A DNA stretch of 64,000 bases from an uncultured Litorivicinus sp. (lineage in GTDB: Bacteria; Pseudomonadota; Gammaproteobacteria; Pseudomonadales; Litorivicinaceae), in NCBI GenBank assembly GCA_902541775.1, contig CACBSE010000004.1:1-64000 (forward strand), in the 5' to 3' direction. Under the pieces are notes generated by a model, which saw only the letters and a program-made list of their open reading frames with translations, was not told where the DNA came from and ran no database searches. Of this stretch, positions 46,501 to 64,000 are shown one piece after another. The translations under genes and the position numbers were made by a program. Position 1 is the stretch's first letter. Each line of letters opens with the position of its first letter.

Positions 46501-46995
46501 GATGACCGGTTTAGAATCAGAGACCTACGTTCAGACACGGTGTTAGCCGAGCGTCTCTATAACGGTGAATTGAGCCTCACCTATCAAGGGATCCAGATCG
46601 ACTTAGATGCGCCTGCCGCTCTTGGTGACACCTTCGTTGTCGATGGCAATAATCTTGGCCCAAATGGCACGTTCGATGGTCAGGGCAACAACGGGAACAT
46701 CCTCCGAGTCGTTGACCTCGAATCAGATCCAGTCGTGGACGGGGCACTGACTATATCGGAGAGCTACCTGAAATTTGTTGGGGACGTCGGTAACGAGGCG
46801 ACGCAGTCGGCAATCGCTCGCGATGCCCTCGAGATTATCCAGACACAGGCAATCGAGGCCCGCGACAGGGTATCTGGGGTGAATCTCGATAAGGAGGCCG
46901 CCGATCTGATTCGCTTCCAGCAAGCCTACCAAGCATCAGCACAGGTGATGCAGGTGGCTACCAAATTATTCGATACCGTACTGCAGGTTCGGTAG
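43537..46995 (+). CDS. flgK: Flagellar hook-associated protein FlgK, unusually large (~1152 aa)
   Basis: N-term 'LLAIGSSGINVYQRALATVSNNIANLNTDGYSRQ', C-term 'GVNLDKEAADLIRFQQAYQASAQVMQVATKLFDTVLQVR'. Confidence 0.96.
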   Translation: MADLLAIGSSGINVYQRALATVSNNIANLNTDGYSRQTTEIRQNQPKEAGGGYIGTGAYFDRVSRQYDGFLESSLQQATADLESQGAAVEYTGRLLDILGDEQIGLTGALNKFFASAKSLSTDPASTALRGAMLRESDALVSRFQSLSGQLKDLGDQSLSALEANVRSANAIAGQLAEINRQMLKKSTESDQAPELLDRRDQLLRDLSEYVQITAAFDQKGSVTVSLTASPTKGMMVSGTRSSSLSVSPNTADRSRLEYRLQGELPSETLTGIRSGSVSGYANFFENTLVSVTQKLNQLAEVLVEEVNTIQTTGLNASGNLGSAFFEVVPSFDIDRGASSGDFQVEVSVTDSETYKSRPITVAFDGQQDLWYAKDETGAPVFADSSGLVDISGVRVRVTGTSNVGDQFTLTPDTGAARGLRLALQDGDEIATASLFRVTTSQKNNGVTDPRVSFSHPSPIDTASVSLAALSTGRPVRVEASSVEPLTVVNAGKSSVNLKLDPGTGSNISVQMITTDGRHILGHVGNVEQRIAMVENLPQFAPNATYNSDYLNQSGADAYKDLDVFYGARSEASAVTQLKPISSLFFEAPSGTDFSGGGLDLTLEPVSPNDRLGLENSPFADPTLGEVTAVNDIIYLGDGTTTMVLGTLESTYDGDAQTLRILFSDDIPAGVLTDELAARVVSLVTFSNGEDLVGSSNPVKKRLTAELFDQDRSLNLVQGRDFVTSTLVEAGQVVTNSSQYIAKLATGNLGYASGAGRVLIERGDLTLNGVTLGELVINSSGILSATDAMGWINSANTGVGVTAANLIEIPSETLRLDTGIGLEINGVEIQSLALGSTLRFDDEDDLVASINAVSVSSGVFARRKENGDLLLQNVNEGGDNIIIDGSLAGAGQNSLGIASKAYIGSLTFELQSGDGQPIEFRLGDAGKPSDLNLLGMNTEIQLRGEIDEDILVFIGGNGDGTVQASSVDSSDPFSEGLRSRQFEFEFVADDRFRIRDLRSDTVLAERLYNGELSLTYQGIQIDLDAPAALGDTFVVDGNNLGPNGTFDGQGNNGNILRVVDLESDPVVDGALTISESYLKFVGDVGNEATQSAIARDALEIIQTQAIEARDRVSGVNLDKEAADLIRFQQAYQASAQVMQVATKLFDTVLQVR

Positions 46996-47004
46996 GGGTG
47001 AGCT

Positions 47005-48576
47005 ATGACGATTTCTACGACTCTTCTATTTAATCGTGCGGTGTCTCTAATGGGTCGCCAACAGACGGCGCTTGCGGAGTTGCAGGAGAAGGTTTCGACA
47101 GGTAAGGAGCTTGTCCGTCCGTCAGATTCGCCTGAGCTTGCGGTGAACATAGCCCGAATCAAGTCGTCGATCGGTGAGATGGACGCATTTAAGAGTTCCC
47201 TCAATGCCGTCAACGACCGGCTTCGGATCGAGGAGAGCTACCTCGACGGGGCGAAAGATGTCCTGATCAAGCTGAAGCAGCTGACCCTTCAGGGCGCCAA
47301 CGCTTCCATGTCAGGTAGGGATAAAGAGGTGCTTGCGCTTCAGGTCGATGAGCTCATCGCGGAAATCAAGAACCTGGCTAACGGCACTGATGCCAACGGG
47401 AATTACCTCTTTGCTGGGTCTCGGGTGACGACACCTCCTTACATCGAGGACGCAGATGGGGTCATTCGATACCATGGGGATAATTTCAGGCCGAATATCG
47501 ACTATACCGCCAACCGGCGGTCCGCGATCGGCCGGAACGGGATCGACGTGTTCAGACCTGTCTTGTCGGGGCAGTCCACAGAACCCACCCCGGGGATTCA
47601 TCAGGTCAGCTTGACAGGAACACTGGAGCCCGGTGACATGTATTCCTTATCCATTGACTCTAGCGAGTTTAATTATGAGGTCCGGCCAGGTGATACGGCA
47701 GATGAGGTTCTCGATAACATCGCCCTCCAAGTCAATGAGTCAGTCTCGCAAGGGGTGATCGAATTAGTTTCCGCCGAACGTGATGGATCTAATCTGATTC
47801 TCTCAACGCTCGATGGTGCGACGAGGACTGTCTCGGGGTCAACTCGGAATACCAGTGAGGCGGTCGATGATCTGAGTGTGAGTTTGGATTCGAATCCAGA
47901 CGACACCTACCGGCTAAGTTTAGAGGGTACCACTGAGCCCGGCGACCAGGTTGTTCTATCGATCGGATCCCGGTCATTCAGCTACGTGGTCCCCAGAGCG
48001 CTTGAGCAAGCGAATAGATCCGCAGTCATGCAGGATCTTGTCTCACAACTCAGCCAGTCTGGGTTATTTTCCGAGTCTGTCGATATTTCCATCGGTCCAC
48101 TCGATGAGACTCAGGTGGTCTTGACACCGACCCGGGACAATATTGGAGACGTGAGCGCGACAATCGTAGAGAGGACCTCGATCAATGACCAGGGGATCTC
48201 TATTTCGTTGACCCAGGAACCACGCCGTGCATTGCCCGAGCGTGTCGAGTTTTTCCAATCCCTCCAGCAGGTCTCTCAGCTGCTTCGAAACGGCACACAA
48301 GATCAGATCCAAGGGAAGCTCGGTCATCTCGATCAGATGCTGGATATCGTAACCCTATCGCTCGCGGATATCGGATCAGAGATGGGTTCCATCGAGGCCG
48401 AAATTTCGATCAACGAGGACCTCAAGCTTCAGCTGGAGACGACGTTATCCAGTCAAGAGGATCTCGATTTTACCACCGCCATCACGGAGCTTCAGTCGAA
48501 GTTGATGTCGCTCGAGGCCGCTCAGTCATCATTTGCGAAGATCTCTCAGTTATCTGTATTTGATTACATCCGATAG
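47005..48576 (+). CDS. flgL: Flagellar hook-associated protein FlgL
   Basis: 'TLLFNRAVSLMGRQQTALAELQEKVSTGKELVRPSDSPELAVNIARIKSSI'. Confidence 0.94.
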   Translation: MTISTTLLFNRAVSLMGRQQTALAELQEKVSTGKELVRPSDSPELAVNIARIKSSIGEMDAFKSSLNAVNDRLRIEESYLDGAKDVLIKLKQLTLQGANASMSGRDKEVLALQVDELIAEIKNLANGTDANGNYLFAGSRVTTPPYIEDADGVIRYHGDNFRPNIDYTANRRSAIGRNGIDVFRPVLSGQSTEPTPGIHQVSLTGTLEPGDMYSLSIDSSEFNYEVRPGDTADEVLDNIALQVNESVSQGVIELVSAERDGSNLILSTLDGATRTVSGSTRNTSEAVDDLSVSLDSNPDDTYRLSLEGTTEPGDQVVLSIGSRSFSYVVPRALEQANRSAVMQDLVSQLSQSGLFSESVDISIGPLDETQVVLTPTRDNIGDVSATIVERTSINDQGISISLTQEPRRALPERVEFFQSLQQVSQLLRNGTQDQIQGKLGHLDQMLDIVTLSLADIGSEMGSIEAEISINEDLKLQLETTLSSQEDLDFTTAITELQSKLMSLEAAQSSFAKISQLSVFDYIR

Positions 48577-48766
48577 CGCTTTGAGCTTTGCGAGTCATCA
48601 CGAAAAAGGGGGGCGGCAAACCCTGTCGGGATGCTGACAGCTAGGCGGCAACTTTTGGCCCCGTCTGGATATCCGGGGTCTGAACTGGATTGTTCAAACC
48701 AACTAATGATCCAGATCGGTTGAGTTTACGGCGTTTCAGGGTGCATTTTTCGGTTGATTTAAATGT

Positions 48767-48782
48767 TGGCACAGAAATCGCT
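48767..48782 (+). promoter_or_regulatory. Candidate sigma-54 promoter of the giant flagellin gene
   Basis: TGGCACAGAAATCGCT, GG-N10-GC; 73 nt before the start; no sigma-28-like motif seen. Confidence 0.65.
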
Positions 48783-48854
48783 TACAGACCCAAGAGGAAA
48801 TTTTTTACCGAGGCACATGTAAGTGAGGTGCCCGGGTAATGAGGAGTAAAACTC

Positions 48855-51800
48855 ATGGCACTAACGGTTAATACCAACGTCTTGGCGCTCAATGCACAAC
48901 GGCACGCGGCCACTACTCAAGATGAGATGGCGTCTGCGATGGAGCGTCTGGCTTCAGGTAAGCGGATCAACAGCGCTGTCGATGACGCTGCGGGTCTTGC
49001 AATCACTGCGCGGATGGAGGCTCAGATTTCCGGCCTTGCTCAGGCGGTACGTAACGCAGGTGACGCGATTTCGCTAGTAAATACCGCAGAAGGTGCGCTC
49101 CATGAGACTACTGACATCCTACAGCGGATTCGAGAGCTTTCCATCCAGTCAGCCGGCGGGGCACCGTCAAATGCCGACCGCGTGAATCTGAATAAAGAAG
49201 TGGTGCAGCTTCAGGAGGAGTTGGGACGTATAACCAATACAACACGTTTCAACGGCGAAATTCTTCTCAACGGAACTTTCCACGACAAAGACTTCCAGAT
49301 TGGCCAAACTAATAACGAGGAAATCTCGGTAAACATCGGAGACATGCGGCCTGAGCGGATCGGTGCGTACACCCAGAACACCTTGACTAATGTCGGTTAT
49401 ATTAACGTGGGTGACTCTGTCGCTGATCTTACAAACGGTGTGAATCAACAGACCCTTACCCTGGCCGTTGGCTCTGAGGTTCCCCGAATTGTCTCGGTCA
49501 ATCTTGGCGATAATGCGAGAACTATTTCAGATAAGATTAATCAGTCTGGGGCCATGATTAATTCCCGGGCCACAAACACTACCGATGTCTATATCTCTGG
49601 GGAGGGAACATTTTCCTTCACTTTATCTTCAGACTCCGCGCCTGATCTCGAGGACGTCGTAACGGTCGGCGGAACTTCTGCCTCAAAGGTCCGGACGATG
49701 GTTTCAGAGATCAACGCTCGTTACTCCGAGCACAACGTTTCAGCCACCACACAGGTAGATGATGACGGCAACGAATTCGTGCGCATGATTCAAGATCAGG
49801 GGTTCGATATACAGATTGATAACTTCGTCACGGCTGGGACCACGGCGCTTGATTTTGGTGGCGACGGTGTAAATGAGGTGACCGGTGCGGCCGGTAAGAC
49901 TGCAGCCATAGCCGGTGGAAGTATCATCATAGACGCTCCCTACTCCTTCCTGATCTCGTCAGATGACACGGATAATACGATTCTTGTTGGAACACGAGCC
50001 TCACTAGAGGTTCAGGGCGCGAGTTCGGTGCCGACAGATTACCAGGACTTGACGTTCGACGTGACAGTGAGCGGAACCACAGAGACAATCACCTTGGCTG
50101 CTCCACCGCCAACAACTCCGGTTGACGCGGTCAGCGCTATTGTCCCGATGGAGTTTACATCGACGGCGCAGACTCAAGCACCGTCTGGACAGCAGATTGG
50201 CGCATTTAGACCCGCAATATACTCAGTTGGACCGATTACCGTCCGGACGGGTAGCGATGCTGGTGACGAGACCACACAGTTTTCCTTGAACGTAAACAGT
50301 CTGGGCCGCCAGGATTTCGATATTGCGCAGGCCCTGACAGATCTCGGGGTGACCTCGACTGGAGCCCCAGATACGGTCGCCACGGGTAGTGTTAATACAA
50401 CAACCAACCGAATCACGATTACCGCCCACGGCTATGAAACGGGCCAACGCCTTACTTACGATAACGCGGGCTCTACGACGCTCTCGGGACTAGCTGACGA
50501 CACTGATTATTTTGTGATCAAGATCGATGACAATACGATCCAGCTCGCTGAGACCTACGCGGAGGCAACGGCCTCAACGGCGGTTCCTATTGTTCTAGAT
50601 GGTACGGGAAACTCTGCCCAGACGTTTACCCCGAACGCGTCAATTACAAAGGCACAGTTCGTCTCGGCGATGCAGACTACGATTAACCAGAATGGTCTCC
50701 TTAGTGGAGATCACGCAGTCACAGTCTCAGTCAACAGCACCGGTCAGGTCGAGCTGACGGTCGCAGGCGGGGCAGGAACAATAGTATTCGAGGAGCACTC
50801 GAATCAGCGCGCTGCAACCGTCAAGACTATCGCCACAGCTGACGTATCGTTGACCGCGGACACGATCACCATCACTGGCCACGGGTTTGTGACGGGGGAC
50901 GTCCTAACGTATGCCAACGGCGGTGGTGCAGATCTTGACCAGGGCGGATCAGCTATTGGGACCGTTTATGTCATCCGTGTTGATGACGACACGATCAAGC
51001 TCGCGAGCACGGCACAGAACGCGTTTGCTGGAACAGCCTACGATTTAGACGACGTCGGTAACGATGCACAGACCCTGACTAAGGCGGCTCGGGACGGAAT
51101 GGCCGCGTCATTGACGCAGAACACGAAGCCCGCTGATGGAACTTCATCGGAGTCTGGAACAGGTGGTTCGGTCGTGCTCGGTGCCACAGATAATGTGACA
51201 AACGGTGATTCTGCAACCCAAGGGCCGGTAAAGCCTTTCGGTGTTGAGACAATCACGATCGCGGGCACAGACGCAAACACCGTCGCGACATCTGCGGTGA
51301 GTACGGCGAATAACACAGTCACCATCACCGATCATGGTTACGTGACGGGGCAGAAGCTGACCTACGATGATGGGTCCTCGACTGCGATCGCTGGTCTGAC
51401 CGATGACACAGACTACTATGTGATTAAAATTGATAACGATACGATCAAGTTGGCATCCACCTACGCAAACGCTGTCGCGGGTACGAACCTAGGGATCACA
51501 GGCACGGGCACCAACGCCCAGACGTTCACGAACTCCAACGATACCTTTACGCTGGCCATCAGCGGTGGGTCTCCTACCACCCTAGACGTCGCAGATGACA
51601 CCTATTACTCGTTAGATCAACTGGCCACAGCGATACAGACGGCGATTGACGACAGTCCCTTCGCGCAGACGGGCGATTTCCCAATCGTCGTCAGTGTGAC
51701 GGAGGATTCGAACGGGGACCAGGGGATTACCTTCTCCAGTGCGGATGGGTATAGCATTGAGCTCGGTGGGACCGAGTTCTTGTCGGACGCGGGTGCTCTG

Positions 51801-53858
51801 AACATCAACCCAGCCCGCACGGCTCCGGACGTGGGAGCACTCACAGACCGTACCTATGCGGCGACGCTCAACACGGACACGATTGCTACATCAGACGTCG
51901 ACACTGGCGATAACCACATCACCGAGACCGGCCACGGTCTGCTGACTGGGGACGTTGTCAAATATAACGCCAATGGCGGTACAGCCATCACGGGATTGAC
52001 CGACGGTCAGTACTATTATGTCATCAAAGTCAATGCTAACGACTACAGGCTTGCGACTTCAGAGGCCAATGCCACAGCTGGGACTGCAATCGGTTTGACC
52101 GGCACCGGAAACGCATCGCAGACCTTTACGAATATAACCTCAGACAAAGAATCAAAGCTCGCGATAAGTGTTAACGGGAGCAGCTTCATCGATATTGATA
52201 TCGCGAATCAGCTGACGCTGGCCGGAGCGGACGCAACAGTGACAGGTACTGAGTTTACGACCGCACTGCAGGCGGCTATTAATGCCAGCGCTGCGTTTAA
52301 TGGTGACAACGCAGTCACCGTGTCGGTAACGAACGCGGGTCTTGTCAATCTCGCTGTGGCTGGCGGCTCGGGTACGATTATCGTCCGGGAGCACAGCGAC
52401 ACCGTCGCGGCCGGCACAAATGGCTTGGTCGAGACCCTGACCGGACGGAATGCGAACGAGGATCACGGGACGCTCTCAACCGTTTCAAACGGTGGTGCTT
52501 CTCAATCATCAACGACAGGTTCGCTGACCCTCGGATCTGAGGCCAACGCCGCGTTGGTGACTGACAATCTGACTTCGTCCGACGCCAACTATGTGAAGAC
52601 CTTCGGGTCTGCCCCGATTACACTCGACGCCACAAACAATACGCTGGTGCTATCGATAAACTCTGGAGCCTCGACGTCCATTGACATCACTCCGGGCACT
52701 TACACAACGATGGCGGACTTCGCCGCAGCGATTCAAACCGCGGTAGATGCCAGTCCACAGTTGACCGGCCAGGTAACGGTCGGCTCACTGCAAGATTCGG
52801 CAAGCCCCTTCACGCATGGCATAACATTCACGCAGCCTAGTGGGTACACGATCGAATACAGTGGGTCTCTCATCACAGACGCTAATGCCTTGAACACAAC
52901 CGCTGGCACCATTGCCGCCTTGACGACAACGCCCGCCGGCGAAGCCGCGAGCCGTTCAACCGTAGCGGCGGGCGCGTTTTCTAACGGGATCGATCTGAGC
53001 ACGGATAACACGATTACATTTGAGGTTACCGATAACGCGACGGGCGCGATCCGGAATGAAACCCTCACTCTAGGGAGCACTTCTGGCTCAGTCTCATTTT
53101 CAGACTACGTAGATTTAGTTGCGACGGCGGCTAATACCGCTTTTTCAGCCGATGGTTATACGTTTTCCAAGGCAGGAACAGGTTCTTCCCTGACACTTAC
53201 CATGGTCCCTGCGGGTGATTACACGGTCTCAATAGCTGGGACCTCAGTAACTCAAGGGCTTGGTGCCGCTGTGTCTGCCTCTGGAACGCCCTCCAATATG
53301 GATGGGTTCACGTTTGAGTCCATGAATGATGTCGTGACGGAAATGAACGCTGAGTTCGCTGCTGCTGGTCTAGGACTCATTGCCGCATACAGTCGTGGTG
53401 GTGACACCTTCACCTTCTCAGTGACAGAAGGAAGGGCTGACTCCTCAAATACGTTAGCATTTTCAGGATCTGAGTTGGCTTCTGTCGGCATAACCGGTAA
53501 TTTAAGCGCTGTCGGCGGTGGAACGGAGCCAGCCGAGACCGTCCGGTACGTCTCCCAGATAGATATTTCGACCAGAGATTCTGCGTTGCTAGCAATGACG
53601 GTAGTTGATGCGGCACTTGAGACCTTGGCTGCCCAGCGAGGTGCTTTGGGTGCCGTCGCAAACCGCCTGCAGGCGACCATATCTAATCTGATGAACATCT
53701 CAGAAAATACATCGGAGTCAATGTCCCGGGTAATGGATGCAGACTTTGCAGCTGAGTCAACTCGCTTGGCGAGGGCGCAAATTCTGCAAGAGGCGTCTGT
53801 TGCGATGCTCGCGCAAGCGAATGCTTCGGCGCAGAGCGTACTCAAGCTTCTTCAATAA
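48855..53858 (+). CDS. fliC: Giant flagellin (1667 aa)
   Basis: N-term 'ALTVNTNVLALNAQRHAATTQDEMASAMERLASGKRINSAVDDAAGLAITARM', C-term 'AESTRLARAQILQEASVAMLAQANASAQSVLKLLQ' with large insertion. Confidence 0.97.
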   Translation: MALTVNTNVLALNAQRHAATTQDEMASAMERLASGKRINSAVDDAAGLAITARMEAQISGLAQAVRNAGDAISLVNTAEGALHETTDILQRIRELSIQSAGGAPSNADRVNLNKEVVQLQEELGRITNTTRFNGEILLNGTFHDKDFQIGQTNNEEISVNIGDMRPERIGAYTQNTLTNVGYINVGDSVADLTNGVNQQTLTLAVGSEVPRIVSVNLGDNARTISDKINQSGAMINSRATNTTDVYISGEGTFSFTLSSDSAPDLEDVVTVGGTSASKVRTMVSEINARYSEHNVSATTQVDDDGNEFVRMIQDQGFDIQIDNFVTAGTTALDFGGDGVNEVTGAAGKTAAIAGGSIIIDAPYSFLISSDDTDNTILVGTRASLEVQGASSVPTDYQDLTFDVTVSGTTETITLAAPPPTTPVDAVSAIVPMEFTSTAQTQAPSGQQIGAFRPAIYSVGPITVRTGSDAGDETTQFSLNVNSLGRQDFDIAQALTDLGVTSTGAPDTVATGSVNTTTNRITITAHGYETGQRLTYDNAGSTTLSGLADDTDYFVIKIDDNTIQLAETYAEATASTAVPIVLDGTGNSAQTFTPNASITKAQFVSAMQTTINQNGLLSGDHAVTVSVNSTGQVELTVAGGAGTIVFEEHSNQRAATVKTIATADVSLTADTITITGHGFVTGDVLTYANGGGADLDQGGSAIGTVYVIRVDDDTIKLASTAQNAFAGTAYDLDDVGNDAQTLTKAARDGMAASLTQNTKPADGTSSESGTGGSVVLGATDNVTNGDSATQGPVKPFGVETITIAGTDANTVATSAVSTANNTVTITDHGYVTGQKLTYDDGSSTAIAGLTDDTDYYVIKIDNDTIKLASTYANAVAGTNLGITGTGTNAQTFTNSNDTFTLAISGGSPTTLDVADDTYYSLDQLATAIQTAIDDSPFAQTGDFPIVVSVTEDSNGDQGITFSSADGYSIELGGTEFLSDAGALNINPARTAPDVGALTDRTYAATLNTDTIATSDVDTGDNHITETGHGLLTGDVVKYNANGGTAITGLTDGQYYYVIKVNANDYRLATSEANATAGTAIGLTGTGNASQTFTNITSDKESKLAISVNGSSFIDIDIANQLTLAGADATVTGTEFTTALQAAINASAAFNGDNAVTVSVTNAGLVNLAVAGGSGTIIVREHSDTVAAGTNGLVETLTGRNANEDHGTLSTVSNGGASQSSTTGSLTLGSEANAALVTDNLTSSDANYVKTFGSAPITLDATNNTLVLSINSGASTSIDITPGTYTTMADFAAAIQTAVDASPQLTGQVTVGSLQDSASPFTHGITFTQPSGYTIEYSGSLITDANALNTTAGTIAALTTTPAGEAASRSTVAAGAFSNGIDLSTDNTITFEVTDNATGAIRNETLTLGSTSGSVSFSDYVDLVATAANTAFSADGYTFSKAGTGSSLTLTMVPAGDYTVSIAGTSVTQGLGAAVSASGTPSNMDGFTFESMNDVVTEMNAEFAAAGLGLIAAYSRGGDTFTFSVTEGRADSSNTLAFSGSELASVGITGNLSAVGGGTEPAETVRYVSQIDISTRDSALLAMTVVDAALETLAAQRGALGAVANRLQATISNLMNISENTSESMSRVMDADFAAESTRLARAQILQEASVAMLAQANASAQSVLKLLQ
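50370..50630 (+). repeat. HG module copy 1 in giant flagellin
   Basis: DTVATGSVNTTTNRITITAHGYETGQRLTYDNAGSTTLSGLADDTDYFVIKIDDNTIQLAETYAEATASTAVPIVLDGTGNSAQTFT. Confidence 0.88.
50826..51080 (+). repeat. HG module copy 2 in giant flagellin
   Basis: TIATADVSLTADTITITGHGFVTGDVLTYANGGGADLDQGGSAIGTVYVIRVDDDTIKLASTAQNAFAGTAYDLDDVGNDAQTLT. Confidence 0.85.
51276..51530 (+). repeat. HG module copy 3 in giant flagellin
   Basis: NTVATSAVSTANNTVTITDHGYVTGQKLTYDDGSSTAIAGLTDDTDYYVIKIDNDTIKLASTYANAVAGTNLGITGTGTNAQTFT. Confidence 0.9.
51876..52130 (+). repeat. HG module copy 4 in giant flagellin
   Basis: DTIATSDVDTGDNHITETGHGLLTGDVVKYNANGGTAITGLTDGQYYYVIKVNANDYRLATSEANATAGTAIGLTGTGNASQTFT. Confidence 0.9.
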
Positions 53859-53893
53859 ATACCGATTACCTATTAATGAAGCAGGGATAGATA

Positions 53894-56119
53894 ATGGTAA
53901 CGACGGATTTCTTGGGTGCACTTGACGCCGGTTCAGGCCTCAACTCGAAGAATTTAGTTGAGGCACTGGTATCTGCCGAACGTGCGCCTCGTGAATCCCG
54001 CCTGAACACCAAGATCGCTGACTCGGAGGCTGAGATCTCCGCCTTCGGTTTAATTAAGTCATCACTACAGACCCTCGAATCAGCGTTTGATTCTCTTAAC
54101 GATAAGGCAGATTTCGAAAACTTCACTGTCAGCGCGACGGGTGGACTGAGCTCCTCTAACGAGGCTGCATTTTCGATAAGCGTTGATGACGCAGCCTCTG
54201 CAGGCACCCACGATATAGCAATCAGTTCTCTAGCCACAGCAGACCGGTTTATTTCAGCCGGCTTTGATTCAACATCTAGCTCAATTAATGGAGGAACACC
54301 CTTCGTATTAAACGTAACGGTCGGCGGAACAACGACAAACTCAATCTCAGTCTCGACGGCTACACCTCAGGGTATTGTTGATGCGGTAAATACTGCTGAT
54401 ATCGGTGTAACGGCGTCGGTCATTGACACGGGCGCGACTACCTCACGGTACAAAATAGTCTTTACCGGGACAGAGGGTGCCGCGAATGCATTTACATTTA
54501 CGGCTGGGGGCGTGGGCGAGACAAGTAGCATCGTTGGTACCGGAGATATTTCGACCAACAACGATACTCTTACGATAGCGTCGCACGGTTTTGTGACAGG
54601 TGACATTCTCACATATGACTCTGCTGGAGGGACTGCTATTACTGGCCTATCTGACGCGACGGCTTACCACGTCATCAGGGTGGACGATAATACGATAAAG
54701 CTTGCATCAAGCGGTTCTAATGCGTCGAGCGGCACTCAAATCGATTTAACCGGCACCGGGAACGATGCACAGATATTTGTCGGTACCAGGTCAGCTAGTT
54801 CTTCGACCGTGACGACTTCCAACGTCTCGACGACCGCAAGCACCTTGACAATCTCAGGTCATGGATATGTGACCGGTGACAGATTAACGTATGACGCGAG
54901 CAGCGGTACCGCTCTCGCTGGTTTAACAGATGGAACAACGTATTTTGCAATACGTGTCGACGATAACACGGTGAAGTTAGCCACGACTGCGGCCAACGCT
55001 GCAGCAGGAACAAATATCACACTCACTGGCACGGGGAATGATTCGCAAACATTTTCAGGCCCACAGCCACCGATGGTAGCGACCAGCTCTGTGTCAACAG
55101 CTAATAACCGTATAACCATGACCGGCCACGGTTATGTAACTGGGGATGTTGTTACGTATCGGGCGAACGGTGGAACGGCGATAGCTGGTTTAACTGATGC
55201 GACAGCCTATCACGTGATAAGGATCAGTGCTGATACATTCAAACTTGCGGCAACACGCGCAGATGCTTTGGCTGGCACGAGTCTGGCAATCTCTGGGACA
55301 GGCAACAGTGCACAGTTTTTTACTGGAAGCGGAATTGCCTTCAACCCGAGGTCCGTGTCTGCAAGTGACGCAGCCTTGACTGTTAATGGAATTGATATTA
55401 CCCGGTCAACGAATTCGATATCTGACATCATCACCGGGATGACAATTAATCTGCTGAACACCACAAATTCGGTCGGGACGGTCTCCATCACAACAGATTC
55501 GAGTCAAGTAGAGACAAAACTAAGAACTTTAGTAACGGCTTTCAACTCTGCGATAACAACATTCGATACGTTATCTGATCCAGATGCGACCGGAGAGAAT
55601 GCAGGGATCCTGAGCGGAGACAGCTCATTGCGATCGATAGAGAATAAGATTAAGGATTTGTTTATTCAGGCTTCTTCTACCCCCGGGACATCCCTGAGCT
55701 ACCTCAGTGATATGGGTATCGAAATGACCCGATCTGGCGTCTTAGAGATTAACGAGACGGCGCTTGCGACCGCCCTCACTTCGAACTATGCCGACATAAG
55801 ACAAATGATATCCGCCGATACGGACAATCAGACCACCATTGGAACCGCCAGCCGCGGAGTGGCCGGCGACGCGCTGGTGATACTTGATGAGTTTCTCAGT
55901 TCAACTGGTATCCTAGAATCGCGGATTACTAACAATGAAACTCGGATCGCAGATTATAAGGAAGATCTTAGTGAACTCGACACGAGGATGCAGGCTATTT
56001 ACGAGCGATACCTGCGCCAGTTCACGGCGATGGAAAAGGCGATTGATGAGATGAATTCAATGAGAGACTACTTGAAACAACAGATAGAAGCCCTGCCTTT
56101 CAACAACCGTGATAAGTGA
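53894..56119 (+). CDS. fliD: Flagellar filament cap protein FliD (741 aa, with HG-module insertion)
   Basis: N-term 'LDAGSGLNSKNLVEALVSAERAPRESRLNTKIADSEAEISAFGLIKSSLQTLE', C-term 'LDTRMQAIYERYLRQFTAMEKAIDEMNSMRDYLKQQI'. Confidence 0.95.
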   Translation: MVTTDFLGALDAGSGLNSKNLVEALVSAERAPRESRLNTKIADSEAEISAFGLIKSSLQTLESAFDSLNDKADFENFTVSATGGLSSSNEAAFSISVDDAASAGTHDIAISSLATADRFISAGFDSTSSSINGGTPFVLNVTVGGTTTNSISVSTATPQGIVDAVNTADIGVTASVIDTGATTSRYKIVFTGTEGAANAFTFTAGGVGETSSIVGTGDISTNNDTLTIASHGFVTGDILTYDSAGGTAITGLSDATAYHVIRVDDNTIKLASSGSNASSGTQIDLTGTGNDAQIFVGTRSASSSTVTTSNVSTTASTLTISGHGYVTGDRLTYDASSGTALAGLTDGTTYFAIRVDDNTVKLATTAANAAAGTNITLTGTGNDSQTFSGPQPPMVATSSVSTANNRITMTGHGYVTGDVVTYRANGGTAIAGLTDATAYHVIRISADTFKLAATRADALAGTSLAISGTGNSAQFFTGSGIAFNPRSVSASDAALTVNGIDITRSTNSISDIITGMTINLLNTTNSVGTVSITTDSSQVETKLRTLVTAFNSAITTFDTLSDPDATGENAGILSGDSSLRSIENKIKDLFIQASSTPGTSLSYLSDMGIEMTRSGVLEINETALATALTSNYADIRQMISADTDNQTTIGTASRGVAGDALVILDEFLSSTGILESRITNNETRIADYKEDLSELDTRMQAIYERYLRQFTAMEKAIDEMNSMRDYLKQQIEALPFNNRDK
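54536..54778 (+). repeat. HG module copy 1 in FliD
   Basis: GTGDISTNNDTLTIASHGFVTGDILTYDSAGGTAITGLSDATAYHVIRVDDNTIKLASSGSNASSGTQIDLTGTGNDAQIF. Confidence 0.9.
54803..55054 (+). repeat. HG module copy 2 in FliD
   Basis: STVTTSNVSTTASTLTISGHGYVTGDRLTYDASSGTALAGLTDGTTYFAIRVDDNTVKLATTAANAAAGTNITLTGTGNDSQTF. Confidence 0.9.
55073..55321 (+). repeat. HG module copy 3 in FliD
   Basis: MVATSSVSTANNRITMTGHGYVTGDVVTYRANGGTAIAGLTDATAYHVIRISADTFKLAATRADALAGTSLAISGTGNSAQFF. Confidence 0.9.
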
Positions 56120-56159
56120 TGATAACGACGCATATCTAGTGTCAATGAAAAAAAAGTAT

Positions 56160-56186
56160 TAAACTTTCTACGTTTACTGCCGATTA
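56160..56186 (+). promoter_or_regulatory. Candidate sigma-28 promoter of flaG
   Basis: TAAACTTT-N11-GCCGATTA, near-consensus. Confidence 0.75.
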
Positions 56187-56220
56187 CCATGACGAGATAG
56201 AGGAAATTGGGCCGTTGAAC

Positions 56221-56610
56221 GTGGAAAATTTTGAGATCAGTAGAAGCATGAGAGTCGCCGCACCAGCTGGCGAGAAGTCCGTGCGTCCTGAAATCTCGGG
56301 TTCTAACGCCAAGGTTAATTCTTTTGTTAACGTAGACCCCATTAAACCGAAACGGTTTGACCAAACCAAGGTGTCAGAGGCACTCTCGGTTGAAAATGTT
56401 GAAAGAGCAATCGAGTCCGTAAACACTGCTTTGAAGAACGCCAATAACTCACTAAGATTCCAAGTAGACGCCGCTGTAAGTCAACCAATAATTTCGGTTG
56501 TTGAAAAAGACACCGGTAAGGTCTTGCGGCAGTACCCATCTGAAGAAGTCGTCCGGATTTCGAAAAACATAGATTCTCTCAGGGGGATTCTTTTCGACTC
56601 TAAGGGCTGA
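56221..56610 (+). CDS. flaG: FlaG family flagellar protein
   Basis: 'ALKNANNSLRFQVDAAVSQPIISVVEKDTGKVLRQYPSEEVVRISKNIDSLRGILFDSKG'; start GTG 56221 or TTG 56215. Confidence 0.88.
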   Translation: MENFEISRSMRVAAPAGEKSVRPEISGSNAKVNSFVNVDPIKPKRFDQTKVSEALSVENVERAIESVNTALKNANNSLRFQVDAAVSQPIISVVEKDTGKVLRQYPSEEVVRISKNIDSLRGILFDSKG

Positions 56611-56717
56611 CTGAAGAGACGCATAGAGATTTTTGGCGTGCCCGTATTTTAGGATGCATAATACTTTGAGAAAATTGACGTAATTGCCCAGCATTTTTTT
56701 AGGCCGTAAACAGGATA

Positions 56718-58220
56718 ATGCCGATGCTCAAAGTGATCTTGGAGTTAGCAAATAACCATTGCGGTTCAATTCAGCACGGCCACGAAATCATCGAAAAGTT
56801 CGATTCTGTTACGAGACAATTTCGCGGAAATATTTGTTTTGGATTTAAATTTCAGTTCCGGAATCTAGATAGTTTCATCCATCCCCAGCACCTCAATTCT
56901 GATCATCCTGGAGTAACTAGGTTCATAGAAACTAAGATATCTTTAGAGGAGTTTGATCTCCTCATAAACGATTGCTTACAGCGCAATTTTATTGTAGGAG
57001 CAACTCCATTCGATGAGGACTCAGTATCCCGTATTTCCGAAGATGCAAGGTTTTCATTCTTAAAGATCGCTAGTTGCAGTATCACTGATTGGCCCCTCTT
57101 AGAAAAAATTAAAGCAGTGGCGCTTCAAAAATCGATAATTGCCTCGACTGGAGGTTGTCACATTTCTGAACTTGATAGGGCCGTTTCTTTCCTTCGAAAA
57201 ATACCAACGTCCTTAGAATTGATGCATTGCGTTGCAATTTATCCTTCAGCGAGGCCGCAATTCAACTTAGCTTGGATTGATACATTGAAAAAAAGGTATA
57301 GGTTGCCCGTGGGTCTTAGCACTCATGAGGACGGCGCTGAAGATCTCACAGGAGCCATAGCATTAGCTATTGGAGCAAAAACCTTCGAAAAGCACGTCAG
57401 TATTCCAGACGTGAAATATCCCATGAATCGATATAGTAGCTCCCCAGAGGAGTTGGAAATTTGGCTAGAGCGAATGCTCGAGGCGAAAGAAATGATAGGT
57501 AATCGAGCTGACAGAGAGGAGTTATTTCTGGAAGAAAGCTCTCAACTCGACAGATTCAGGAGGGGTGTTTTTGTTGGAGAAAAAATTTGCCTTGGATCTA
57601 AGATCGATCCCAGCAACTTAAAGTTTCAATACCCTTTAACGGAGGGACAGGTAACAGCAAGCGAGATTTCTAAATTTTCAGAAATCGTCGCGCTTGAAGA
57701 GTTAGAAAGTGGAACCCCACTCCTGCAATCGCAAGTCAAACGTAATGATTTTCGGGCGATTGTCGAAGATTTTGCGATTGACTATGTCGGTATTATCAAG
57801 GCGGCACATATAAATTTAACGAATCCAGTTGAGGTAGAAATTAGCCATCATTATGGACCAGATAAGTTGAATCAGTATGGGATTGGGATGATCACAGTCG
57901 TAAACGACGACTACTGCAAAAAGTTTTTAGTGATGCGTGCACAACAAAGTCATCCAGCACAATTTCACCGTAAAAAAACTGAGACGTTTATTCTATTGTC
58001 TGGAAATGTCGTCGTAGATCTAGACGGCGAAAAGCAGACTCTGAATTTGGGAGAACCTTTAACGATAAAACCCGAGGTAGTTCACAGTTTTAGAGCTGAA
58101 ACAGATTCGGTTATTGAAGAGCTGTCAACGACTCACATGTCCGATGATTCCTTCTATTTAGATGAACACATTTTAAGTAACAAAAAAAGGAAATCTTTTG
58201 TCACGATATCAACAGCTTAG
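56718..58220 (+). CDS. NeuB-family nonulosonate synthase with SAF region and C-terminal cupin domain
   Basis: 'LELANNHCGSIQHGHEII', 'LKIASCSITDWPLLEKI', 'IIASTGG', 'LMHCVAIYPS', 'VGLSTHEDG', 'FEKHVSI'; C-terminal cupin 'HPAQFHRKKTETFILLSGNVVVDLDGEKQTLNLGEPLTIKPEVVHSF'. Confidence 0.88.
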   Translation: MPMLKVILELANNHCGSIQHGHEIIEKFDSVTRQFRGNICFGFKFQFRNLDSFIHPQHLNSDHPGVTRFIETKISLEEFDLLINDCLQRNFIVGATPFDEDSVSRISEDARFSFLKIASCSITDWPLLEKIKAVALQKSIIASTGGCHISELDRAVSFLRKIPTSLELMHCVAIYPSARPQFNLAWIDTLKKRYRLPVGLSTHEDGAEDLTGAIALAIGAKTFEKHVSIPDVKYPMNRYSSSPEELEIWLERMLEAKEMIGNRADREELFLEESSQLDRFRRGVFVGEKICLGSKIDPSNLKFQYPLTEGQVTASEISKFSEIVALEELESGTPLLQSQVKRNDFRAIVEDFAIDYVGIIKAAHINLTNPVEVEISHHYGPDKLNQYGIGMITVVNDDYCKKFLVMRAQQSHPAQFHRKKTETFILLSGNVVVDLDGEKQTLNLGEPLTIKPEVVHSFRAETDSVIEELSTTHMSDDSFYLDEHILSNKKRKSFVTISTA

Positions 58221-58229
58221 TTAAATTTA

Positions 58230-59162
58230 ATGGAACCAATTTACGGACCAGTATTCACTATTTACCCATCATTCAATCATGACTTTACGGTTGACCTGCG
58301 GGGCACAATTCGGTACGCCACTTATCTTATAGAAGCCGGAGCTAGGTGGTTGTATTTGATGCCCTATAATGGCCGATACAACCAACTTTCCGATAGTGAG
58401 ATTGAATCTCTCGGCGGAGCTCTTATCCGACTAATCGGTCCCTTGCATGCGACTAATATAATTGTAGCTGTACCAATTAATTACTCGACACAGGCCACTT
58501 ACGCACTAATGAACAGATGGTCTGAGTTAGGAGAATTTTGCGTGTCCTCTTTGGTGGGAGAAAGGCTATATTCCTCACAGCAGCTAGTTGATCATTATAG
58601 TTATCTTAATGAGTTTGGAATGCCAATCGTAGCGCATGAGATGCCCATGATCGCGGGTATCAGTGGCGAGCTAGTTAGCTGGCCTTCCGAGTGCCTAATT
58701 GAAATATCTGAGCTTCCTAACATTGTGGGCATAAAAGAAGACTCAAAGTCAGTGCAATACGCAACAGACATTCTGGATAGAAAACCAGGAGCACCACTTA
58801 TTTTCGCGGGCAGAAAATCTTTTTTTGGCGAACTAGTGACGGCTGGTCTGAATTGCTATCTAAACGGGATTTCAATGGTTGAACCGCGTTTGGCATTTAA
58901 ATTTTTTCATCTAATAGAAAACTACGATAACGAGGGTTGCAGAACTGAGATGCAACGGTTTATTAGGGAGGTTGATGATCCTTTTTGGGATGACTTAGTG
59001 ACATCATTTGGTTGGCATCGTGTTAATCGAGCTTCACTTTTTTACTTTAATTTGCTGGATAAAACAGAGCGGAGTCCCATGCCACAATTAACAGCTAAAG
59101 AATACCAACATCTATCAAATTTTTGGGACAGGCACAAAGAAGTAATCAATGGATGGATCTAA
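58230..59162 (+). CDS. DHDPS/N-acetylneuraminate lyase family aldolase
   Basis: TIM-barrel aldolase with Schiff-base Lys context 'LPNIVGIKEDSKSVQYATDIL'. Confidence 0.75.
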   Translation: MEPIYGPVFTIYPSFNHDFTVDLRGTIRYATYLIEAGARWLYLMPYNGRYNQLSDSEIESLGGALIRLIGPLHATNIIVAVPINYSTQATYALMNRWSELGEFCVSSLVGERLYSSQQLVDHYSYLNEFGMPIVAHEMPMIAGISGELVSWPSECLIEISELPNIVGIKEDSKSVQYATDILDRKPGAPLIFAGRKSFFGELVTAGLNCYLNGISMVEPRLAFKFFHLIENYDNEGCRTEMQRFIREVDDPFWDDLVTSFGWHRVNRASLFYFNLLDKTERSPMPQLTAKEYQHLSNFWDRHKEVINGWI

Positions 59163-59883
59163 GGTCTGCTTTATACCTGCTCGATCGGGTTCGAAGCGTT
59201 TAAAAAATAAGAACCAAGAGAAGGTCTCGGGACTAACCCTGATTGGGTGGGCAATGTTGGCCGCAAAACTTACTGATGTCTTTGATGAAATCGTTCTTAG
59301 CTCAGACTCTGAGAAATACTTTACTGATGCTCTTATCGAAATTGAAGAGCTCGGTATGAGTACTGACGATATTAAGCTTGACAAGCGAGACAGGGCAGAT
59401 GCTGGTTCCAAGATCAAAATTTTCGATTATATAAAATCCGGATTTCGTCATCCTGTTATGAGCGAGCCACATGGCATGCTAGTGCAAATGTTGCCAACGT
59501 CTCCGTTTCGACAAGTGTCGCTTATTCGAGAATCGATCATACAATGTGCGAAGACGAAAAAGAGTAGTTTTGCCGCAGCCCCCTATGATTTCCATGTGTC
59601 TTTCGCGTTTGAAACACTAAACGGTTCTTGGTCGCCCTTGCTGGGTCACGAAAGTCCTATGGTTTCAGGGCAAACACAAAGTCAAGACCAAAAAAAGTAC
59701 CTTCACCCTTGTGGCTCATTTTACATAATAAACACGGGTTGCATCCAAAACATGCAAACTATCTATCACCAGTCAGAGCCTGTCGAGGTTGACCGATTAT
59801 CTGCCCTGGATGTTGATACTGCTGAGGATCTCGATTACTTAAGATTACTCGCAGCTGATCCAAGAACAATTCTCAACCGATAA
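59149..59883 (+). CDS. CMP-nonulosonate (NeuA-like) cytidylyltransferase
   Basis: 'CFIPARSGSKRLKNKNQEKVSGLTLIGWAMLAAKLTDVFDEIVLSSDSEKY...QMLPTSPFRQVSLIRESI...VDRLSALDVDTAEDLDYL'. Confidence 0.88.
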   Translation: MDGSKVCFIPARSGSKRLKNKNQEKVSGLTLIGWAMLAAKLTDVFDEIVLSSDSEKYFTDALIEIEELGMSTDDIKLDKRDRADAGSKIKIFDYIKSGFRHPVMSEPHGMLVQMLPTSPFRQVSLIRESIIQCAKTKKSSFAAAPYDFHVSFAFETLNGSWSPLLGHESPMVSGQTQSQDQKKYLHPCGSFYIINTGCIQNMQTIYHQSEPVEVDRLSALDVDTAEDLDYLRLLAADPRTILNR

Positions 59884-60199
59884 TCTAGCGAAGAGACGGT
59901 CTTTCGATTAATAGCTTGGGAAGGATGCTGGAAACCTCCCGGACTTAACTGGAAGGATGAAGCTTTGAGTCTTGGGAAGACTGAAAAACAACGTTTGGTG
60001 GAAGAGCCTGCGAACCGTATTGATCGCGGCAGTTTCAATTATTTTTGATCTTTTAATCTCATGGGAGATTATTTGAAAAGCTCACACTGCCATAGAGGTC
60101 TACAATGTTTTCATATTCACGATATATAAAAACTGGCCACTTGTGTTTTAACCCTTTGGTTTGCATTTCACATTTTCAAAACTAGTTCGGAGATCTTGC

Positions 60200-61609
60200 A
60201 TGATCCAACAAAATGAATTGGTCGATATTTTTTTAAGAGAGGAGTCGAAGGGTGACTGTTGGACTCTTAATTTTGGAGGTATTTCCCTTTGGCCGCTATT
60301 GAGGATGTGTCTTTACTTTGCGTGGAGGAGTAAACAAACCGCCCTGTCAGAACCGGCGGATACAGGCCTGACATTTAATTCTGATTCTTTATTATCTGGC
60401 GAATTCGGCACCACGCAAAAAGCAGGTAAAAAGCAAGTTATGCTCATCTCTCGCGATGACGCGCTCAATGACAAAGTTGACGGTAAATTGTTCGATAAAT
60501 TTATCTCGTCTATCGCTATTTTATTTAGTCGTTTTCATGATGTTGCAGTTGTGTCATACACGCCCGAGAAAAAAAACCGATTCGATCATACAGTTGATCT
60601 GTCTCGGCATTTAGATCTCTCGAATAATGAAATCTCACTCAATATTAGTCGGGAAGACCTGAATACGATCGAATCCTATATCTCCTATATTTGCGATGAG
60701 TGTCATCTTTCAGTAACACTAGAAACTCTTCTACACGCGTTTGGATATTGTGCGAGTGGACAGTCTTTTTGGTCAAAGATCTTTGAGGAATCTAAGCCGG
60801 ATATTGTTATTACAACTTGTTTCTATGTGCCATTTCTAACCGGTGCGTGCGTCGCTGCTCGTGAAAGAGGAATACGTTTTGTCGATATGCAGCATGGTAG
60901 GGTTGGAACTAATCATCCGGTAATGTCCAATTGGGATTTTCGAAAGGCTCAATCAGACGTGGGAAATTTTTTCCCGTCAGATTTCTGGTGTTGGACAGAA
61001 GAAAATGTGCGCCAGATCCAAACGACATGGAGAGGCTCAGACGATATTCCAAAAACGTCCGTCTTTGGGAATCCTTGGCAATTTGTGCGCTCAAAAAAAA
61101 TAATCGATGAAAAGTCCGCAAGGATTGGAAAAAGATCGAATCGGATTGTATTGGTTGCGCTTCAGCCTATTCCGGATTCATTTCCTCTCTTTATGATACA
61201 AGCATTGAAGAAATATCCAGATTTGCGGGTTTGGGTGAGACCTCATCCTCACCAAATTGGTGCCGTATCGGAAATCGAAAACGCTGTTAGAGAAAAGGGA
61301 TTACGCAATTTCCTAGTCAGATCCAAAACCGAACTGTATTCAGAATTTGAGCAGATAGATCTCGTCATTACCGCATTCTCAACAGTTGCCACGGAAGCAT
61401 GTGATTTTGGTTTGCCAGTAATTTTGACACATCCGAACGCCGAGGCTGCGTTCGCTGGGATGATAGATAATCAAAAGATCTTTTATTGTAGCAATGAAAT
61501 AGAGAGCATAAATGCTTTACAAGTTTGCACCTCTGGTACGGAGGTTAAATTCTGCAGGGAGTCAACCGCGCTACCCGATTTCGAAAGTATGGCAAGTTGT
61601 TTTGACTAA
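60200..61609 (+). CDS. GT-B-like glycosyltransferase / surface carbohydrate biosynthesis protein
   Basis: 'RFVDMQHGRVGTNHP', 'WVRPHPHQIG', 'LVITAFSTVATEACDFGLPVILTHP' resemble CDP-glycerol/capsule GT-B C-terminal regions; ATG 60200 preferred over 60161. Confidence 0.6.
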   Translation: MIQQNELVDIFLREESKGDCWTLNFGGISLWPLLRMCLYFAWRSKQTALSEPADTGLTFNSDSLLSGEFGTTQKAGKKQVMLISRDDALNDKVDGKLFDKFISSIAILFSRFHDVAVVSYTPEKKNRFDHTVDLSRHLDLSNNEISLNISREDLNTIESYISYICDECHLSVTLETLLHAFGYCASGQSFWSKIFEESKPDIVITTCFYVPFLTGACVAARERGIRFVDMQHGRVGTNHPVMSNWDFRKAQSDVGNFFPSDFWCWTEENVRQIQTTWRGSDDIPKTSVFGNPWQFVRSKKIIDEKSARIGKRSNRIVLVALQPIPDSFPLFMIQALKKYPDLRVWVRPHPHQIGAVSEIENAVREKGLRNFLVRSKTELYSEFEQIDLVITAFSTVATEACDFGLPVILTHPNAEAAFAGMIDNQKIFYCSNEIESINALQVCTSGTEVKFCRESTALPDFESMASCFD

Positions 61610-61684
61610 ACATATTTCGCTCTAATGCCGCCTGGTAACACCGTCTTAGCGATCTTCCACCTGCGAACGATGTCAAATTAACTT

Positions 61685-61700
61685 TGGCCCGCATTTTGCG
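61685..61700 (+). promoter_or_regulatory. Candidate sigma-54 promoter upstream of the dioxygenase-like gene
   Basis: TGGCCCGCATTTTGCG, GG-N10-GC, 38 nt before the ATG. Confidence 0.5.
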
Positions 61701-61737
61701 TACAGAACAAAGTCTAACGATATCGGAAGGATAAAAA

Positions 61738-62334
61738 ATGTATAACGCAGAAATTGGGATCTTAGAGGGTCGATTAGCTGCAAGGGAAATAGCAAATTTG
61801 CTTCAGTTGAGCGAGCAAATAAAACAATCGGGTTCCAAAAGATTAGGAACAACAATTTCGATTTGGGAGGTCATGTTTTCTGACTTAAACTATTTCTGCA
61901 CTGAGGGAAGCGCCAGGACCTTATCCAATCTGATCAACTTCGTCGCACCTCCAAAATCACTTTCCCTCGAAAAATTCTGGGTTGTGGAGAGCTCATACGA
62001 GAACGTAGATGCCTCAAAGCTGCCTTTCCTCCCACATTTTGATGTCAAAAGAACCACCAAGATAATGGTTTATTTGTCGGATGTTGATACAAACGATGGA
62101 CCAATGTTTATCGCAAAAAACGTTAGCCCAACTCAATTCGAAAAAAGACGATGTGGAGTAACCCTGAAAGGCCAGAATGTTGTAACCAATACAAATCTAA
62201 CTTTTGAGCCACTGATTGGCCCCGCGGGCCACTTTCACGTTTTTGATACGAACATCCCTCATTTTGCTGGTAGGCCTGGCCAAGGCGGTTCAAGGACAGT
62301 CTTACGTCTCGATTTCGTGCATCCTCACCAATGA
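61738..62334 (+). CDS. Phytanoyl-CoA dioxygenase-like Fe(II)/2-oxoglutarate-dependent oxygenase
   Basis: HxD 'LPHFDVKRTTKIMVYLSDVDTNDGPMFI' and distal His/Arg 'HFAGRPGQGGSRTVLRLDFVHPHQ'. Confidence 0.72.
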   Translation: MYNAEIGILEGRLAAREIANLLQLSEQIKQSGSKRLGTTISIWEVMFSDLNYFCTEGSARTLSNLINFVAPPKSLSLEKFWVVESSYENVDASKLPFLPHFDVKRTTKIMVYLSDVDTNDGPMFIAKNVSPTQFEKRRCGVTLKGQNVVTNTNLTFEPLIGPAGHFHVFDTNIPHFAGRPGQGGSRTVLRLDFVHPHQ

Positions 62335-62428
62335 TCGGTTGACTTTGAAATGGTCGGATACTACCGATTAATTATCTGTTCTTTTATATAGTCCTAATTC
62401 GAAAAAACTAAGCATTCGATGCCAAAAC

Positions 62429-62649
62429 GTTCGCTTGTAATAACGAGTGGGCGCTCTTTGCAGGCAATTTAGCTCCGCTCAGGTTTCCTAATCTTTCCAA
62501 ATATTTCCGAATTTTCGAACTTTAATTTCCAAGCTTACATGTTCGCTTGTAATAACGAGTGGGCGCTCCTTGCAGGCAATTTAGCTCCGGTCAGGTTTCC
62601 TGATCTTTCCAAATATTTCCGAACTTTCGAACTTTTATTTCCAAAGCTT
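62429..62649. repeat. Two tandem direct copies of a ~108-bp non-coding sequence (112-bp period)
   Basis: Copies at 62429 and 62541, both starting GTTCGCTTGTAATAACGAGTGGGCGCTC; I count about five substitutions and one indel. Confidence 0.92.
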
Positions 62650-62683
62650 GGCAAGGCGTTGCCATAAGAATTGCCATATAGGC

Positions 62684-62710
62684 TAAAGCTTTCCAGGATA
62701 TTGCCGATAT
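62684..62710 (+). promoter_or_regulatory. Candidate sigma-28 promoter of the second flagellin
   Basis: TAAAGCTT-N11-GCCGATAT, near-consensus, 63 nt before the ATG. Confidence 0.8.
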
Positions 62711-62772
62711 TTCTCTCAACGGCGGTGAATGTTTGCCGGGTGGTGCAAAAAATTTTGACGAGGAGATCGACA

Positions 62773-64000
62773 ATGGCACTTGTAGTAAATACGAATATCG
62801 CGTCTCTAGTTGCTCAGAATAATCTGTCAGCTAATCGCAGTGAAATGGAAAAGGCCATGGAGCGTTTATCTTCTGGTCTAAGGGTGAACAACGCGCGCGA
62901 CGATGCGGCAGGCCTTGCAATTGCGACACGTATGGATTCTCAGATTCGTGGGATGACAAAAGCTGTCCAGAATGCCAATGATGCCATCTCGCTGACGCAG
63001 ACAGCGTCGGGTGCGCACAAAGAGATAAGAGAGATGCTGCAGCGTATGCGTGAGCTAGCTGTCCAGTCATCCAATACCACAAATAATTCAACAGACCGAG
63101 CTTCGTTGGACGCAGAAGTTGCTCAATTGGTTGCTGAAATTGATCAAATTGCTGTGGATACACGGTTTAACAACCAGGCTATTCTTGACGGAAGTTACGC
63201 CGCCAACATTCAGACCGGGGCATTTTTGGGACAGGACCTTGGCTTCTCTATCGACTCGATGAAGACAGCTGATCTGGGCTTGGTCACGACAGGCTCGTCG
63301 ACAGGTGTTTCGACGTCCACCTATATTGGTGGCAGAACAAATCTGGCTCCCTCGCACGGGGCGATTGAAGCTGGCGATATTTTGATCAATGGTCAGGCGA
63401 TGGCTGCGATTGCTGCAGCTGACGAAATCACTGATGTTGTGGACAATATCAACACAAATATTGAAGGGGTTACGGCGTCTGCCTTTAACGAGGTCGTAAT
63501 GCGTGACGTTGGTACTGGTCAAGCTACGGCCGGCACAATTTTGGTGGGTATTCAGAATGTTGGTTCCTCATCAAATGCTGATGACGTAACAACCCAGACC
63601 TTCCTCATTAACCAGGATTCGGCTAATTTGGAAGAACTGGCTGGATTGATCGTTACTGAGTCAGAGGGACGAATTTCGGCGAGTGTAAATTCCGATGGAA
63701 AACTGGTGCTGTCAAACGATACTGGCGCTGCGATATTGGTGAAAGATACCTCAACTAGTGCGTCCGCAACAGGACTTGGTACCGGCGTGAATCACGATGA
63801 AACACTGGCAGCTGACGGTAACTCAGGGACCCCATCTGTCTCCACAACTACCTCTAACGATGCGCGGGTATTCCATGGATTCCTCAAGTTGGAATCAGAT
63901 ACTGGCGACCGAATCACGATTGAAAAAGGATTGGGGGTATCGTCTGGGGCTATCGGAACGCAAACAGAGCTAGCACTTCTTGGACTTCAGCAGTTAAATG
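62773..64000 (+). CDS. fliC: Second flagellin (3' truncated by window edge)
   Basis: 'ALVVNTNIASLVAQNNLSANRSEMEKAMERLSSGLRVNNARDDAAGLAIATRMDSQIRGM'; open frame to the window end. Confidence 0.96.
   Translation, partial: MALVVNTNIASLVAQNNLSANRSEMEKAMERLSSGLRVNNARDDAAGLAIATRMDSQIRGMTKAVQNANDAISLTQTASGAHKEIREMLQRMRELAVQSSNTTNNSTDRASLDAEVAQLVAEIDQIAVDTRFNNQAILDGSYAANIQTGAFLGQDLGFSIDSMKTADLGLVTTGSSTGVSTSTYIGGRTNLAPSHGAIEAGDILINGQAMAAIAAADEITDVVDNINTNIEGVTASAFNEVVMRDVGTGQATAGTILVGIQNVGSSSNADDVTTQTFLINQDSANLEELAGLIVTESEGRISASVNSDGKLVLSNDTGAAILVKDTSTSASATGLGTGVNHDETLAADGNSGTPSVSTTTSNDARVFHGFLKLESDTGDRITIEKGLGVSSGAIGTQTELALLGLQQLN

Follow-up and report, generated by a model that had tools for sequence, protein, structure and literature searches.

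What is encoded by the conspicuously AT-rich gene block that separates flaG from a flagellin gene in the marine bacterium Litoricola (now Litorivicinus), and how did it come to lie within a flagellar cluster? The window analysed here is the whole 64,000-nucleotide stretch G000:C4:1-64000, part of a 1.26 Mb genome that is 61% complete; coordinates beyond 64000 are contig coordinates in the same numbering. The original prediction had listed five genes in the block, coding for a NeuB-family synthase with a C-terminal cupin, an enzyme of the dihydrodipicolinate synthase (DHDPS)/N-acetylneuraminate lyase (NAL) fold, a NeuA-like transferase, a GT-B-like protein and a PhyH-like dioxygenase. All five were found on the plus strand where it had placed them, with FlaG (PF03646) encoded upstream and a Flagellin_N domain downstream (Table 1). 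Our analysis suggests that the block is probably an exchangeable nonulosonate-type flagellin-glycosylation cassette, one allele of a locus in marine Litoricola. A G+C and codon-usage profile bore out its AT-richness: G+C is 0.421 over 5.6 kb compared to about 50% in the flank, the lowest value of any island-length stretch in the window (non-overlapping stretches all at least 0.463, mean 0.499), and G+C at third codon positions is 0.39-0.43 in the cassette genes versus 0.47-0.50 in those for FliD, FlaG and flagellin.

We compared the locus with that of the nearest relatives, G020 and G004, which belong to the same genus; the three cassette genomes (G000, G004 and G020) are 60-72% complete. The order fliD-flaG-cassette-flagellin is found in all three, the cassette being present as two divergent alleles. 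Between flaG and flagellin G020 and G004 carry a NeuB with a fused xylose-isomerase-like TIM barrel, a NeuA, a DHDPS-like protein and a glycosyltransferase, with the PhyH-like gene sitting behind the flagellin instead of within the interval, and the cassette proteins of the window are 26-43% identical to this version. On the DNA level G000 and G020 are 94.6% identical at 42460-56604 and 92.7% identical at 69277-75575, and these conserved flanks enclose a divergent block of 12.6 kb that ends on the right at ~69.3 kb. Identity to G020 falls across flaG from ~0.92 to 0.83 and 0.71 until the alignment stops at 56604; no nucleotide match to G020 was obtained at 56605-62716, and the flagellin gene matches at just 66-71%. 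At the protein level the block's flagellin shares 68% identity with its G020 counterpart, as opposed to 98.6% for a 1667-aa flagellin-like protein and 95.5% for FliD, both encoded just upstream of the block. As these two relatives have a divergent version here, between flanks that are 93-95% identical, replacement is favored over insertion. What had been described as an inserted island is rather one among several gene sets that occupy a diversified block, the flagellin included, and insertion into an empty site was rejected since relatives hold another cassette at the same position. On these comparisons the flaG-flagellin interval is probably an exchange locus, the adjacent flagellin having diverged together with the cassette.

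Other congeners hold different genes there. The more distant G009 and G015 encode a PseB above the curated cut-off together with PseI-, PseF- and aminotransferase (PseC)-like proteins and a TPR-containing transferase adjoining the flagellin, G001 has an FlmG-like (TPR-type) transferase similar to the latter between flaG and flagellin, and G021 has a GT41-like gene. We had considered the congener transferases as Maf-like and dropped this assignment as Pfam shows TPR domains, making them FlmG-like. Several further genes were recorded. Downstream of the flagellin and convergent to it lies a gene for a GT41-like protein that matches TPR models weakly and shares 47% identity with its G020 version (L016:9042-11024, contig 65042-67024), and the right edge of the block is occupied by a 569-aa TPR protein that is 77% identical in relatives and gives no clear match in Pfam over its C-terminal half (L016:11568-13277). 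At this edge G020 has ~8.5 kb extra compared to G000, including methyltransferase-like and sulfate-adenylyltransferase-like genes (L074:1-9069). G021 shows several short flagellin-like open reading frames (151-277 aa) beside GT41-like genes, perhaps an array of flagellin fragments (L022:2967-10771).

The NeuB domain of the synthase has its best PDB match in 3g8r_A (E 1.2e-65, query residues 6-339), a structure deposited as probable SpsE and the closest solved NeuB domain; the match ends ahead of the cupin, the deposited chain being 350 aa long. The domain scores above the gathering threshold of PF03102 and keeps the catalytic residues Glu and Lys and both metal-binding His (E9, K116, H203 and H226, invariant in the NeuB alignment). 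The equivalog cut-offs for NeuB and PseI were missed widely (TIGR03569, 117.9 of 399.65 bits; TIGR03586, 108.5 of 340.25 bits), and the Arg of the antifreeze-like domain that corresponds to Arg314 of N-acetylneuraminic acid (Neu5Ac) synthase is missing in each of the six NeuB-clade sequences. In Neu5Ac synthase this residue positions the N-acetyl group of N-acetylmannosamine (PMC6795526), and in Caulobacter, where flagellin modification requires NeuB activity, mutation of the equivalent Arg322 abolished function (PMC7591256). Asp247 of the Neisseria enzyme seems to be replaced in the clade as well; we did not use this as evidence.

The cupin resembles D-lyxose/D-mannose isomerase (PF07385) above the gathering score, and the KxETF motif, a second His and a lyxose-isomerase-like EE(L/V)S(T/S)TH...DDSFY tail are kept in the NeuB-cupin clade. 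Unlike the isomerase it is fused to NeuB, and in the window protein Gln takes the place of the first His of HxH. Three full-length NeuB-cupin relatives occur in other genomes of the same class, one of them (L068) directly behind a flagellar cluster resembling the window's genes at 41-48 kb and the other two in other sugar loci.

We next consider the precursor genes, which the original prediction had described as missing. No PseB above the curated cut-off and no DegT-family aminotransferase (PseC/LegC) was found in G000, G004 and G020, all of them incomplete, while both are present in G009 and G015; a search for NeuC-type 2-epimerases gave none in G000 and G004 and one Epimerase_2 in G020. None of the three was thus found in the 61%-complete G000 assembly; the gene set itself is no canonical pathway with gaps but a recurrent module that SAR11 loci have as well. 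Since neither the N-acetyl-positioning Arg nor the aminotransferase was found, an unusual acceptor sugar, probably not the usual acetamido hexose, is favored, an argument limited by the incompleteness of the genomes. Outside its flagellar cluster G000 has a second nonulosonate locus (G000:C41; L017:2204-5624, L002), which adjoins a sugar-nucleotide-dehydrogenase-like gene and encodes a NeuA with a fused HAD phosphatase, closest to the KDN-9-phosphatase model (under its cut-off), as well as a CBS-NeuB-TIM-barrel fusion.

The DHDPS-like protein shares the fold and the Schiff-base lysine of the DHDPS/NAL superfamily. Its profile matches DHDPS structures in the PDB (E 5.5e-16) and reaches NAL structures too, and its AlphaFold model (pLDDT 89.5) gives Foldseek TM values of ~0.8 to the DHDPS/NAL fold without preferring either subfamily. 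In the alignment of the eight subfamily members Lys169 is invariant, whereas the catalytic Tyr position is occupied by His136 in all eight, and the GTTGE loop is replaced by PYNGRY in the window and by YNxR(Y/F/L) in every member except the most distant one. Moreover, the subfamily separates from DapA-type sequences in the tree with support 100/100, and all eight members lie in NeuB loci. Judged by alignment and tree, the DHDPS-like protein is an apparently undescribed subfamily of this superfamily.

Relatives of this protein are rare. Sampling 399 genomes of the phylum returned matches in three, one being the window itself and the others ordinary members of the family, and strong matches were obtained in five of 397 genomes from the order of L029 (SAR11). 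Genes for NeuB, the DHDPS-like protein and NeuA share a locus in all eight cases, three from Litoricola and five from SAR11, and the DHDPS-like gene lies within 15 nt of NeuA in seven of them (for L015 the spacing is that of its sister L014, 97% identical). In L029, L045 and L048 the module is joined by PhyH-like homologues. Weak matches in G180, G415 and G755 were rejected as module members, being ordinary DHDPS-family or dapA genes. In the viral contigs searched neither the DHDPS-like protein nor the glycosyltransferase had a relative, the plasmids and phages searched gave remote DHDPS-superfamily matches and nothing closer, and a full-text search found, among the papers it covered, none linking NeuB with DHDPS or NeuB with a cupin. 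By its gene content and recurrence, the NeuB/DHDPS-like/NeuA set is evidently a conserved, recurrent module.

For the NeuA of the window TIGR03584 (PseF) is the nearest model (E 4.6e-26, below its cut-off). In the tree it clusters with three SAR11 sequences (support 99/95), away from its congeners, and a topology holding the Litoricola sequences together was rejected with p-AU 0.015, a lenient value as the grouping was chosen with the tree already in view. The long branches of this tree advise caution, and the tree of the DHDPS-like proteins does not decide between grouping with SAR11 and grouping with Litoricola. The glycosyltransferase, listed as an open reading frame from 60161, has its start at the ATG at 60200 as placed by homologues and is 42% identical to the G020/G004 versions; its AlphaFold model (pLDDT 57.8), too poor to name a family, has NeuC/WecB-type GT-B proteins as top structural matches (TM ~0.4), so that a NeuC-like role is conceivable. 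The PhyH-like protein has no Pfam match of its own and is 43% identical to a homologue in L014 and 34% identical to one in L029 (L029:9724-10389), which itself matches PF05721; the HxD...H...R pattern is present in all five aligned homologues.

Sigma-28-type sites with up to two mismatches occur five times in the whole window, with 0.49 expected by chance. The site upstream of flaG is kept in G020 and G004 with no mismatch to a slightly different consensus, and on the plus strand of 56000-63000 the sole terminator-like hairpin is the one after phyH, none being found between flaG and phyH. We infer that flaG and the cassette are transcribed together, late in flagellar assembly.

In the route that we propose, the NeuB domain would condense phosphoenolpyruvate with an aldose, probably not the usual acetamido hexose, which the fused isomerase-like cupin would prepare or handle. 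The DHDPS-like Schiff-base enzyme might make or trim a 2-keto acid on this pathway, NeuA would form the CMP-sugar, and the GT-B-like protein would attach the sugar to the neighboring flagellin while that protein is still in the cytoplasm, ahead of its export. The PhyH-like enzyme would hydroxylate the sugar. Like the FlmG/pseudaminic acid system of Caulobacter (PMC7591256), the window combines a NeuB-family synthase, a cytidylyltransferase and, as read from its genes, a cytoplasmic transferase dedicated to flagellin; unlike that system, it has no PseB or PseC equivalent that we could find, adds the DHDPS-like and PhyH-like enzymes, and its transferase gives no match in Pfam to the TPR domain typical of the FlmG class. 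Maf-dependent flagellin glycosylation, e.g. in Aeromonas (PMC4065374), likewise has glycosylation genes near flagellin and nonulosonate-type chemistry, but no Maf domain was matched in any cassette protein of the window (Pfam).

Could the cassette serve ordinary pseudaminic or legionaminic acid glycosylation of flagellin, with the missing genes located in the 39% of the genome that the assembly lacks? The incompleteness of G000, the canonical PseB and aminotransferases of G009 and G015 and the PseF model nearest to NeuA would fit, but PseB and DegT aminotransferases are missing from three of three cassette genomes, the NeuB/PseI and PseF cut-offs are both unreached and the NeuB clade lacks the Arg that positions the N-acetyl group. 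To our knowledge, the DHDPS-like partner has no place in these pathways, and we regard this explanation as unlikely. Rather improbable, too, is that the DHDPS-like protein is an NAL-type enzyme for salvage or recycling outside synthesis: the shared fold and the reach of the profile to NAL structures speak for it, whereas the subfamily has lost the catalytic Tyr and the GTTGE loop, it is tightly coupled to NeuA, and a lyase next to a synthase would be futile if both enzymes had the same substrates. That lipopolysaccharide or capsule sugar genes ended up in the flagellar cluster by chance is very improbable. The SAR11 loci carry the module without flagellar genes and G000 has its second nonulosonate locus elsewhere, but in three of three genomes the cassette follows a sigma-28-type site and stays between flaG and flagellin, the neighboring flagellin diverged along with it, and congeners have pseudaminic-acid-type genes at the same position.

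An exchangeable flagellin-glycosylation cassette is thus the reading that we prefer, and several points weigh against it. Glycosylation of the flagellin is a prediction from sequence, and the glycosyltransferase is assigned only by motifs and a low-confidence model; the absent precursor genes may sit in the gaps of the cassette genomes; the Gln in the HxH metal motif makes isomerase activity of the cupin unsure; and the module, occurring in SAR11 without flagellar genes, is not specific for flagella. The horizontal acquisition proposed originally agrees with the nonulosonate-type genes, the flagellar flanks in three genomes, the sigma-28-type sites and the grouping of NeuA with SAR11, which points to horizontal exchange, the part that fell being entry into an empty site. 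More tentatively, NeuB, the His-type DHDPS-like protein and NeuA might constitute a hitherto undescribed route that leads to a keto-sugar acid of none of the sialic, pseudaminic and legionaminic classes, possibly without amino groups, in which synthase-isomerase fusions supply the aldose and which is common to SAR11 loci and Litoricola flagella, there moving as an exchangeable, antigen-like cassette. The locus points to a pathway of nonulosonate type which, despite contrary key residues, annotation would classify as sialic acid synthesis, and the three-gene combination offers a signature for locating it. The cassette links loci of two marine groups, Litoricola and SAR11, and as a stretch that shapes the surface of the flagellum in this free-living marine bacterium appears to be exchanged along with the flagellin, selection by phages or grazers becomes a testable idea.

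Table 1. Coordinates of the cassette genes and adjoining features.
Feature	Position	Strand	Evidence and remarks
Sigma-28 (FliA)-like promoter upstream of flaG, TAAACTTT-N11-GCCGATTA	56160..56186	+	2 mismatches to searched pattern
flaG	56215..56610	+	PF03646 E 4.8e-20; left edge of divergent block in or just after flaG
NeuB-family synthase with C-terminal cupin resembling D-lyxose/D-mannose isomerase	56718..58220	+	PF03102 E 3e-36, PF07385 E 3.5e-7, PF07883
DHDPS/N-acetylneuraminate-lyase-fold enzyme	58230..59162	+	PF00701, 34.3 bits
Putative CMP-nonulosonate synthetase, NeuA/PseF-like	59149..59883	+	PF02348 (CTP_transf_3); 14 nt overlap with DHDPS-like gene
GT-B-like glycosyltransferase without TPR domain	60200..61609	+	QHG, RPHP, FST motifs; weak Pfam/NCBIfam matches
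PhyH-like 2-oxoglutarate dioxygenase	61738..62334	+	homology
Terminator-like hairpin behind cassette	62351..62370	+	pattern only
112 nt repeat, two tandem copies, upstream of flagellin promoter	62415..62638	+	copies 90% identical
Sigma-28 promoter of flagellin gene	62684..62710	+	0 mismatches to pattern
Flagellin, 742 aa, probable target	62773..64000, 1,001 bases more outside window	+	PF00669; 68% identical to G020 allele

Two further features of the window were recorded. The tandem 112 nt repeat at 62415-62638 is possibly a recombination scar or a regulatory repeat. The very large flagellin-like protein of 1667 aa, encoded at 48855-53858, contains repeats that it has in common with FliD and with a 1381-aa protein encoded at 35512-39657.

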